A DNA stretch of 34,943 nt from Spirosoma fluviale (lineage in GTDB: Bacteria > Bacteroidota > Bacteroidia > Cytophagales > Spirosomataceae), in contig CAMDSI010000004.1 in assembly GCA_945906915.1 (NCBI GenBank), forward strand, positions 1 to 34,943, read 5' to 3'. Under the pieces are notes generated by a model that saw nothing but the letters and a program-made list of their open reading frames with translations, made no database searches and was not told the origin of the DNA. Of this stretch, positions 9,101 to 23,375 are shown piece by piece. Both the position numbers and the translations under genes were made by a program. Every line of letters begins with the position of its first letter. Position 1 is the stretch's first letter.

Positions 9101-9495
9101 TCTCTCAAGATCCTTATTTGAATTCTCGTCGTGGTAAATATGCTGAGCGTAACGGTGCTGAATTACCTTGGTCAGCTAACTTTGATTTCAAAGTAATTCA
9201 AGATTTCTATATCAATGTAGGTGGTAAGAAAAATACATTACAATTTACTTTAGATGTATTTAACTTAGGTAACTATGTCTCACCACAGTGGGGCTTAGGC
9301 CAATCAGCTATCCGTGCTAGTTTATTAAACTACACAGGAAATGATGCAACGACTGGTAAGCCTAGTTTCAACTTCCCTTACAGATATACTGGTAACCCTA
9401 CTTCATCTGTGCCTTTGACAGATTCATTCCAACGTAGCTTTGGTTTAGGATCAAGATGGCAAGCACAGTTTGGTGTACGTTATATCTTTAACTAA
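6136..9495 (+). CDS. TonB-dependent receptor, Oar-like, with N-terminal carboxypeptidase-regulatory-like domain
   Basis: 1119 aa; signal peptide; LSGTVVDEKGQGLPGATVIAIHEPTGSRYGASTRGDGRYNIVNMRVGGPYKVTISFVGY domain; plug and beta-barrel style sequence ending in ...QAQFGVRYIFN. Confidence 0.92.
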   Translation: MQRRFITKSVLLGAFFAFIMALPVGQAFAQGSTTSALSGTVVDEKGQGLPGATVIAIHEPTGSRYGASTRGDGRYNIVNMRVGGPYKVTISFVGYKESVQSGISLTLASELRQNFKLELNQAQLEEVKVVASRSSVINSGRTGAATTVSNSSITTLPTLNRSLGDFARLDPRANGLNFAGRNALYNNVTVDGAFFNNAFALSPTIGGQAGASPISIDAIDQFQVLIAPYDVRQGMATGANINVVTKSGTNDWTGSAYYFGTDQNQVGNKIGDVVNQYGNFARGQFGGRIGGALVKNKLFVFASFEQELQTQPGSNFIARRGGSNAANQSVATVEQLESIKSLLKSKFNYDPGAYEGWDRENYSQKANIRFDWNISDKHKFNLKYNYLRSYADVPPSSSGSLNGGRNPSATVLPFQGSLYRINNNLDSYIAELNSTFSSSVANNLTVGYTQMRDFRQSPVNNTPFPTVDIGNNNNNSLTAFGFEPFSANNILDSDIFQASDNLTVYAGKHVFTLGAAYETNAFRNGFAPNYYGGYQFKSVDDFIASVNTGVSNALQYQQSWSNYSTFPFAEMKGYTASLYAQDEFTAAKGLKLTFGLRADGTGFPVADDAKYNNAYVPSLTFRNNTVLRTNQLPDFTTLWSPRFGFNWDVKDDKTTQVRGGLGVFSGRVPYVWLSNQLSNNGVLFGSERLANPTNRPFNANVDAYRPAVATSIIPTSYNLAVTDPNFKFSQVFRANLALDKSLGNGWLVSLEGIYTKDINAVYLENINLPDSKVKAVGSDSRVIYYTLGANGLPSSTKNNQIYGGTRGLNAPTTGNTGLNPNISDAILIKNTQLGYSYALTATVSKAFDNGLFASLSYTNSDSRSVNDGGSIAQSQWRDRVVSGDPNENVASYSSYMQAHRINAYGSYKLNYLNEKAATTFGFTYSVAPAGRYSYTYSGDMNGDGQNNDLMYVPYGEGDILLKDLAVSYNVSQTFTYTAAQQWIDLDKFISQDPYLNSRRGKYAERNGAELPWSANFDFKVIQDFYINVGGKKNTLQFTLDVFNLGNYVSPQWGLGQSAIRASLLNYTGNDATTGKPSFNFPYRYTGNPTSSVPLTDSFQRSFGLGSRWQAQFGVRYIFN

Positions 9496-9530
9496 TAAAA
9501 AAGGGGACTTAGGTCCCCTTTTTTATTAGT
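9491..9530. terminator. Bidirectional intrinsic terminator overlapping the receptor stop codon
   Basis: ACTAATAAAAAAGGGGAC-TTAG-GTCCCCTTTTTTATTAGT; 18-bp perfect arms with a T tract. Stop TAA (9493-9495) lies in the left arm. Confidence 0.9.
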
Positions 9531-9563
9531 ATAGAGTATAGATTATAGAGCACAGATTATAGA
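9529..9563. repeat. Degenerate heptad repeat, 5 units (consensus about KYAYAGA)
   Basis: gtataga|gtataga|ttataga|gcacaga|ttataga. Confidence 0.7.
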
Positions 9564-9565
9564 GT

Positions 9566-9707
9566 TGGTTAACAAAAAAGGCGCAATCTGCGCCTTTTTT
9601 GTTGTATAGGAAATATTTTCCTCCGGACTGATTTCCTCTGAACTATTTGACTAAGCCGCAGGCGACTAGGACGAAGTCGACTAAGTTGCGAAGCAACGAC
9701 TCATTGA
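9566..9707. repeat. Intergenic repeat module, copy 1 (142 bp)
   Basis: Aligns with 9748-9874 apart from one 15-nt insertion and one substitution. Contains hairpin AACAAAAAAGGCGCA-ATC-TGCGCCTTTTTTGTT (9571-9603) and a GNA mini-hairpin array (9649-9707). Confidence 0.92.
9571..9603. terminator. Terminator-like hairpin, module copy 1
   Basis: 15-bp perfect arms, ATC loop, terminal T tract on both strands. Confidence 0.8.
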
Positions 9708-9710
9708 TTG

Positions 9711-9745
9711 TTTTAGATTAGAGATAATAGAGTAAAGAGTAGAGA
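9711..9745. repeat. Degenerate heptad repeat, 5 units (consensus NTANAGA-like)
   Basis: ttttaga|ttagaga|taataga|gtaaaga|gtagaga. Confidence 0.65.
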
Positions 9746-9747
9746 TG

Positions 9748-9874
9748 TGGTTAACAAAAAAGGCGCAATCTGCGCCTTTTTTGTTGTATAGGAAATATGT
9801 TCCTCCGGACTATTTGACTAAGCCGCAGGCGACTAGGACGAAGTCGACTAAGTTGCGAAGCAACGACTCATTGA
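9748..9874. repeat. Intergenic repeat module, copy 2 (127 bp)
   Basis: Tandem copy of 9566-9707. The last 59 bp (9816-9874) are identical to 9649-9707. Confidence 0.92.
9753..9785. terminator. Terminator-like hairpin, module copy 2
   Basis: Identical to 9571-9603. Confidence 0.8.
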
Positions 9875-9912
9875 CAAAACGTTTTAGTCGCGAAGCGACT
9901 AAAACGTTTTGT
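9874..9912. repeat. Perfect 18-bp-arm palindrome with GAA loop, overlapping the 3' end of the uxs-like CDS
   Basis: ACAAAACGTTTTAGTCGC-GAA-GCGACTAAAACGTTTTGT. The stop codon of the minus-strand CDS (9899-9901) lies in the right arm. Confidence 0.9.
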
Positions 9913-21937: not shown

Positions 21938-22567
21938 TTATAAATTAATCACAAAATCTTCTTTTGCATAACGAACTTTGGCTGCATTTGCCATAAAGTC
22001 ATTAGCTGCATCACGTTCTCCTACGGCTAGCATCAATACTGAATGTAATCCCATAGCTTCTAAGCCTAGTAATTCATCTAATTTCGCTGGAATAAATCCT
22101 TCCATTGGCGTGGAATCAATTTGTAATTCACCCGCCGCCGCAAGGGCTGTACCCATCGCTAAATAAACTTGACGTGCTGCCCAATGTCTTTTCGCCTCTA
22201 CCGGACGACCTAATAATGAACCAGCAATAGCACCACGGTAATCCCCTAGCATATCTAGTGAAAGACCACGTGTATCAGCTACTAATTGGATGAAAGCATC
22301 GATTTGAACTTCAGTAATATCATTCCAAGCTGCAAAAACCAATAAATGCGATGATTCAACAGCCTGTGGTTGACCATAAGCGATTGGTTGAATTTTTGCT
22401 TTTAATTCTGGGTTTTCGATTACTAACACTTTATAGGGTTGTAAACCAAAACCTGATGCTGAAAGGCGGATTGCTTCTAATAAAGAATCAATTTTATCTG
22501 CGGAAACTTTGTTTCCTGTCATTCTTTTTGCGGCATAGCGCCACGATAATGAGTCAATTAAAGACAT
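21938..22567 (-). CDS. Nitroreductase family NAD(P)H-dependent oxidoreductase
   Basis: 209 aa; SLSWRYAAKRMTGNKVSADKIDSLLEAIRLSASGFGLQPYKVLVIENPELK, DSTPMEGFIPAKLDELLGLEAMGLHSVLMLAVGERD. Confidence 0.92.
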   Translation of the reverse strand: MSLIDSLSWRYAAKRMTGNKVSADKIDSLLEAIRLSASGFGLQPYKVLVIENPELKAKIQPIAYGQPQAVESSHLLVFAAWNDITEVQIDAFIQLVADTRGLSLDMLGDYRGAIAGSLLGRPVEAKRHWAARQVYLAMGTALAAAGELQIDSTPMEGFIPAKLDELLGLEAMGLHSVLMLAVGERDAANDFMANAAKVRYAKEDFVINL

Positions 22568-22572
22568 AAGTT

Positions 22573-22600
22573 GAATGGTGAATGGTGAATGGTAAATTAC
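22573..22600. repeat. Heptad tandem repeat (GTGAATG-type, about 3-4 units)
   Basis: ttgaatg|gtgaatg|gtgaatg|gtaaatt; gaatggt occurs three times without interruption. Confidence 0.75.
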
Positions 22601-22653
22601 AAGGCTTACTCTAGAAAATGGTCTACGACATATTTTCTGCGAATAAGCCTTGA
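22601..22653 (+). repeat. Conserved-core hairpin element, copy A
   Basis: CAAGGCTTA...TAAGCCTTG outer stem enclosing core TCTAGAAAATGGTCTACGACATATTTTCTGCGAA. Confidence 0.85.
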
Positions 22654-22739
22654 TAATTTATCAAATAAATAATTCAAATTCTTTTACTCCTGCGCCAAAT
22701 TAAGAGAGCGAAAGAGTTATTAGATTATCGAATAATTAT

Positions 22740-22796
22740 AAAAAAGGGGATTCGCAGAAAATATGGCAAAGACCATTTTCTAGAATCCCCTTTTTT
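22740..22796 (-). repeat. Conserved-core hairpin element, copy B (inverted), also a candidate yceI terminator
   Basis: Minus strand: AAAAAAGGGGATTC ... GAATCCCCTTTTTT outer stem enclosing core TCTAGAAAATGGTCTTTGCCATATTTTCTGCGAA (31/34 identical to copy A). Confidence 0.88.
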
Positions 22797-22799
22797 ATA

Positions 22800-23375
22800 T
22801 TATTCTGAAACTAAAGACACTGTTAAAGCGAAATCATCATAAATCGCCTTATCACCAATTGATTCAAAGAATTTCTTAGAACCGTAACGGATGTTAAAGT
22901 CAGTACGATCGATCGTAATGTTTGCCTTCGCAGTTACTTTACCGCCTTTAACCGCGATTTCTGCTGGGAAAGTGATTGATTTTGTGATCCCTTTTACAGT
23001 TAAGTTACCAGTTACTTGATTACCTGCTACCTTAGTGATGACGAAAGAAGCCGTTGGGAATTTTTCTACTTCGAAGAAATCATCAGAAGAGATGTGTCCA
23101 ATGAATTTTTGGTTGTAACCTGCATCCGTGATATCTAAATCCTTAATAGTTTTCAAATCAATGGTGAAGTTTCCTCCGATTAATTTGTTTCCATCTACAT
23201 TTAAAGCGCCTGCAGAGATACCTACAGTACCATTGTGCTCTCCAGTTACCTTCTTGGCTAACCAAGCGATAGAACTAGTTGTCTTGTTTAAGTTGACAAT
23301 TTTAGGTGCGGCAACACCAGCAATTGAGATTAGGCCTAAAGCCAAAGTGGCAATAACTACTTTTACAGATTTCAT
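22800..23375 (-). CDS. YceI family periplasmic protein
   Basis: 191 aa; signal peptide; SSIAWLAKKVTGEHNGTVGIS, GHISSDDFFEVEKFPTASFVIT, LTVKGITKSITFPAEI. Confidence 0.94.
   Translation of the reverse strand: MKSVKVVIATLALGLISIAGVAAPKIVNLNKTTSSIAWLAKKVTGEHNGTVGISAGALNVDGNKLIGGNFTIDLKTIKDLDITDAGYNQKFIGHISSDDFFEVEKFPTASFVITKVAGNQVTGNLTVKGITKSITFPAEIAVKGGKVTAKANITIDRTDFNIRYGSKKFFESIGDKAIYDDFALTVSLVSE

Follow-up and report, generated by a model that had tools for sequence, protein, structure and literature searches.

Gene-end hairpin elements with a conserved tip and locus-specific stems form a dispersed, clade-specific family in Aquirufa

Palindromic repeats are normally defined by the sequence of their stems. 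REPs keep the stem sequence between copies and carry a GTAG/CGTC tag; together with REPINs and BIMEs and the associated RAYT transposases, they form a class of imperfect palindromes that are dispersed, lie outside genes, contain unpaired bases, are often found at 3′ ends and are specific for the folded strand. A second class of folded sites, attC, lies at the gene 3′ end in a fixed orientation and consists of a variable palindrome that is read by its structure on the bottom strand, with a conserved hairpin base and unpaired bases spaced as T-N6-G (PMC3053210). Template switching, finally, makes and repairs perfect stems and yields multibase compensatory changes (PMC8794818); the hairpins described there belong to single RNA genes. 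Here we describe hairpins that resemble each of these systems in part and that, unlike REPs, have locus-specific stems and no tag.

Two such hairpins lie in inverted orientation in the window, by which we mean the whole 34,943-nt stretch of DNA analyzed (Table 1). Their cores are identical at 31 of 34 positions, all three differences are confined to the apical 10 nt, and dinucleotide shuffles of the window give zero expected core matches. The pair noticed in a sequence-only reading of the window is thus real; the reading placed core B correctly, while its position for core A (22611–22644) was off by one. It had also described the outer stems as unrelated yet complementary, and this is borne out: the stems of the two copies are unrelated in sequence, and their arms are 92% complementary over 12 nt in copy A and 100% over 17 nt in copy B. 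On either strand, the folding of both copies beats that of shuffled sequences (z −6.7 to −8.4), and a covariance-model scan found no third copy in the window. Copy B directly follows the stop codon of yceI and is sense to it. Copy A lies 5′ of the nitroreductase gene, as the reading had stated, and is antisense to both neighbors.

Table 1. Hairpin elements in the window and the genes beside them (R1 and R2, covariance models)
Feature	Coordinates	Strand	Remarks
Copy B, complete hairpin element	22737..22799	-	R1 74.3 bits, R2 65 bits
17-bp outer stem of copy B			TATAAAAAAGGGGATTC/GAATCCCCTTTTTTATA
Core B	22751..22784	-	TCTAGAAAATGGTCTTTGCCATATTTTCTGCGAA; A+T inner stem, G/AT internal loop, apex GGTCTTTGCC
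Copy A, complete hairpin element	22595..22657	+	R1 64.8 bits, R2 46.7 bits
Core A	22610..22643	+	TCTAGAAAATGGTCTACGACATATTTTCTGCGAA; apex GGTCTACGAC
YceI-like gene	22800..23375	-	3′ end bears copy B; gene order same in sister Aquirufa
Nitroreductase-like gene (putative)	21938..22567	-	Product name from the sequence-only reading

Both hairpins belong to a dispersed, clade-specific family of gene-end hairpin elements. Six exact copies of the core are present in the source genome, and further ones occur in part of the freshwater genus Aquirufa. Scanning about 85,000 genomes for the exact 22-nt core gave 55 stretches, among them A. antheringensis 30S-ANTBAC and "Cytophagaceae" MAGs (genus Aquirufa). 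Flank complementarity was 14–20 of 20 in most Aquirufa copies and 6–11 of 20, the chance level, outside the genus, where the stem was missing from all exact-core matches. Covariance model R1, built on 29 copies, and the broader R2, built on 38 diverse copies, identified the same 10 carriers among 38 Aquirufa genomes (3–15 copies per genome with R1 and 14–25 with R2) and returned zero copies in the other 28. Carriage within Aquirufa is therefore all-or-none, with A. antheringensis 30S-ANTBAC and its relatives carrying the family. An A. antheringensis branch with ∼2.5-Mb genomes has been described (PMC10821818), and the 10 carriers probably correspond to it. The statistics below are based on 137 distinct copies for position and apex and on 63 copies below 80% identity for the arms. 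The window has no match in Rfam, the sub-threshold matches being spurious and miRNA-like; viral contigs gave one chance match to two core patterns and none to one narrower pattern, and BLAST of the intergenic region against phages and plasmids gave no match. A brief look at the literature found no paper on the family. It is real and apparently undescribed, and the anatomical case for it is strong.

The element consists of a conserved apical module on top of a long stem. The 22-nt module, absent from sister genomes, comprises five A+T pairs, an internal loop with G on one side and AT on the other, two or three further pairs and a C-TNY-G triloop; it also includes an extra base on the same arm as the AT bulge and about 6 nt below it. 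The supporting stems are near-perfectly complementary, and their sequences are unrelated from locus to locus. Among the 38 diverse copies, 21 of 25 pairs show change on both sides, and covariation reached 0.716, against 0.180 after shuffling and 0.257 or less after sliding. Covariation scores can be inflated by related sequences, but stems at unrelated loci are themselves unrelated, so the covariation there cannot be inherited. The core covaries too: pair 22–36 is T-A or C-G, and pair 24–33 is G-C, T-A or C-G in all 38 copies. The internal-loop G (5′) and AT (3′) are invariant in this set, the copies beyond it having come from a search that required both, and a slipped pairing register of the core fits more poorly than the G/AT internal loop. 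The apex is C-TNY-G in 119 of 137 copies and GNRA-like in 13, and one or two extra bases occur on the 3′ arm in 58 of the 63 nonredundant copies, the first of them after 6 nt in 31 and after 5–7 nt in 47. The reading had taken a conserved inner sequence with a compensatory outer stem as the signature of a selected hairpin, and had held that a lack of both further copies and covariation would speak against it. The search of the genome and its relatives that it proposed found well over a hundred members, and their strong covariation, which extends into the core, where the reading could not have seen it, supports the claim.

The sites are transcription-unit ends, just past stop codons. With ORFs taken from a simple script, none of the 137 copies lies inside one; 128 of 135 have the same orientation as the gene directly upstream, copy A being among the few exceptions. 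The tip lies at a median of about 18 nt beyond the stop codon, and the outer stem starts within the coding sequence in 91 of 117 near copies. The host genes represent some 35 unrelated families, presumably including prfA, infB, mutS, guaA, NAD kinase and yceI. A suspicion of tRNA remnants, raised by GGAGAGGTTGACTGAAGGGGCGGTTTA, was dropped, as this sequence is the end of prfA and ARAGORN found no tRNA.

These features place the family close to, but outside, the described classes. At the 3′ foot, where the complements of REP tags were sought in the 63 copies, CTAC occurs in 4 and GACG in none, and CTCT (18/63) and TCT (40/63) are found instead. A Y1 transposase (IS200-like/RAYT, PF01797) is absent from 9 of the 10 carriers, including the near-complete G007, G012 and G019, and the arms at nonorthologous loci are unrelated, in place of a shared palindrome; a REP assignment fails on these features. 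The resemblance to attC goes further, with a pair of extrahelical positions on one arm (6 nt being the commonest spacing), a gene-end site and the bottom-strand folding discussed below. R boxes (RYYYAAC/GTTRRRY), however, occur in 0 of 63 copies, attC conserves the base of the hairpin where the element conserves the tip, and cassettes and arrays are probably lacking. The hosts are housekeeping genes syntenic with sister genomes, which argues against integron cassettes. We file the family as a variant of the extragenic palindromes, in neither REP/RAYT nor attC. The proposal that the cores are the termini of a ∼174-bp MITE did not hold up: most copies are single and a facing pair is one arrangement, arms, stems and spacers are not common to the loci, no direct target duplication was seen, and in sister Aquirufa the homologous region spans about 70 bp and holds a single ordinary terminator. 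Since most copies are single, the general function cannot lie in the two cores pairing with one another, as was also suggested.

The stems turn over while the module stays. No arm is shared between nonorthologous loci, and even at the same locus (mutS/guaA, yceI and prfA) the stems can be unrelated between genomes. Among the carriers, yceI shows three unrelated stem states and prfA at least four; next to mutS an element is missing in G014, G019 and G012 but present in other genomes; and at one locus the stem has been wholly replaced between species with the module kept. Reverse-complemented gene ends close the 3′ arms, and ahead of new elements lie relic 5′ halves that break off in the apex. 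At guaA, complete elements are followed by stacked relic 3′ halves, each still ending in AATTTATTTC, the complement of the guaA gene end GAATAAATT. Like the hairpins described for template switching (PMC8794818), the elements have perfect stems, multibase compensatory changes and few G–U intermediates; what sets them apart is a conserved tip shared by dozens of unrelated gene ends. Template switching may have acted on them, as judged from the end products, none of the compared loci offering a before-and-after pair that resolves a single event. The family is a natural case for following the template-switch renewal of hairpins across loci and species.

Comparing G·T with A·C mismatches can tell which strand of such a hairpin folds. 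In the outer stems of the 63 copies, A·C mismatches on the sense strand outnumber G·T by 34 to 5 (p about 2e-6, the counts ignoring phylogeny). Sense A·C mismatches are wobble pairs on the complementary strand, which points to the folding of that strand, whereas folding as sense RNA predicts G·U above A·C. The mismatches at core pair 25–31 (C·T 13, T·C 12, C·A 6 and G·T one on the sense strand) become A·G, G·A and, for the C·A cases, G·T on the other strand and point in the same direction. On the complementary strand the loop is mostly C-GNA-G, and loops of this class are extraordinarily stable in DNA, according to work of Yoshizawa (1997) as cited in PMC6479982. The exception is the GNRA-like loop of 13 of the 137 copies, which looks stable on the sense strand instead, and the wobble asymmetry could partly be an effect of strand-biased mutation. 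We infer that the folding strand is the complement of the mRNA, most likely as DNA, in a single-strand hairpin or a cruciform.

The reading that we prefer, held tentatively and at somewhat less than even confidence, is that of a template-strand hairpin site recognized by its structure, the gene end being the source from which its stem is rebuilt. A protein or enzyme is predicted to read the loop and the unpaired bases, not the stem sequence. The stem would be made and re-made by template switching, or fold-back copying, such that the 3′ arm repeats, in inverted form, the gene end together with the bases that follow it; copying of this kind would account for perfect stems, for the replacement of whole arms and for relic half-elements. 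With only the tip fixed and the stem built from the adjoining gene end, sequence clustering would miss the family. Several observations sit uneasily with the template-strand site: an orientation following transcription is natural for a sense-RNA element, the GNRA-like loops are apparently stable on the sense strand, and a few copies, copy A included, run antisense. No protein recognizing the element was found; should a protein read the tip, it would be a recognizer specific for structure, acting on a gene-end site not seen before. A more specific version, in which the elements form a dispersed, attC-like class of folded template-strand DNA sites, each tailored to its host gene's end by fold-back copying round a fixed tip and used by an enzyme that the A. 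antheringensis branch has for this purpose, seems improbable to us.

The orientation is better accommodated if the element is a hairpin in the 3′ UTR of the sense mRNA, with the module as the target of an RNA-binding protein or nuclease confined to the lineage, so that 3′ ends are protected or processed. This explanation, which we rate as possible but less probable, draws on the 95% sense orientation, the distance from the stop codon, the ordinary terminator that follows the element at several loci, the structural covariation and the 13 GNRA-like loops. It runs against the scarcity of sense G·U relative to A·C (5 versus 34) and the pyrimidine–pyrimidine core mismatches on the sense strand, and the host genes form no regulon.

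The stem turnover could also come about with no selected function at all, a stable tip provoking template switching in replication or repair and being handed from old to new hairpin at the same place, in self-renewing palindromes at noncoding gene ends. The wholesale stem replacement, the relic 5′ and 3′ halves, the stacked guaA copies and the arms unshared between loci are as expected from such renewal. We nevertheless consider it unlikely, as it leaves unexplained how a single tip came to occupy some 35 unrelated loci, why the orientation is so strictly sense and why the G/AT internal loop is never corrected to a perfect stem.

Of the 125 sense copies with a known downstream neighbor, 106 face a convergent gene and 19 are co-directional with it. 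Read-through from the facing gene would then carry the hairpin in antisense RNA and could stop or destroy antisense transcripts at the gene border, in agreement with the folding evidence for the bottom strand. Such a role is distinctly unlikely. In a 400-kb sample of G007, where a transcription-unit end was taken as convergent, or as co-directional with a gap of >100 nt, 82% of the ends are convergent anyway, which explains the apparent specificity for convergent genes; the 19 co-directional copies also speak against it, and no terminator tract was seen on the antisense strand.

The intrinsic terminators of the source genome resemble the element in being hairpins downstream of the stop codon and differ in being short (10–16 bp, GC-rich, with a 3–8 nt loop), having A/U tracts and being present in sister genomes. 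At infB and several G007 loci, the element sits between the stop codon and an ordinary terminator, and at infB and yceI the sister genomes have only the ordinary one. An origin in which the core entered the loop of an existing terminator is rejected for infB, where the element precedes a separate terminator, and unsupported for yceI, where the element and the terminators of sister genomes have no stem in common. After the 3′ arm, TTTT is not enriched (11/63 versus 18/63 in the background), whereas CTCT is (26/63 versus 6/63). The element is generally not a terminator, an ordinary one often lying farther downstream. The suggestion that copy B is the yceI terminator stands in part, as its A-tract/U-tract arms are like those of the ordinary terminators and it may act as one; taken together, however, the copies of the family are not followed by a U tract. 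That the elements are ordinary intrinsic terminators sharing a loop by chance, an idea resting on the arms of copy B, is very improbable given the TTTT counts, the separate terminators downstream and the absence of the module from sister genomes.

Other repeats and hairpins were seen at gene ends. The inositol-oxygenase-like gene end (L082, L085 and L059) has three or four GNRA-like elements per intergenic region, some of them facing, and a long gene-end hairpin in G007 (L248:9578–9647) has a 23-bp stem and an apex, TCCTTGTTCCTGGCGAAAAGACTC, unlike that of the family. In sister Aquirufa, the prfA 3′ end (L287 and L290) bears several copies of a different hairpin repeat, GTAGAGACGCGA..TCGCGTCTCTAC. 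Elsewhere in the window, a 404-bp tail-to-tail region (9491–9912) contains four strong hairpins. Two copies of AACAAAAAAGGCGCA..TGCGCCTTTTTTGTT are among them and lie in a duplicated stretch of about 180 bp; a perfect 18-bp palindrome, ACAAAACGTTTTAGTCGC, is also present. Tandem GAATGGT repeats occupy window positions 22573–22593, between copy A and the nitroreductase start, and at comparable gene-end places other Aquirufa (L365, L366 and L367) have GAGTAGAGATTATAGAT or AAAGCATAAAG repeats, as if purine-rich gene-end repeats replaced one another.
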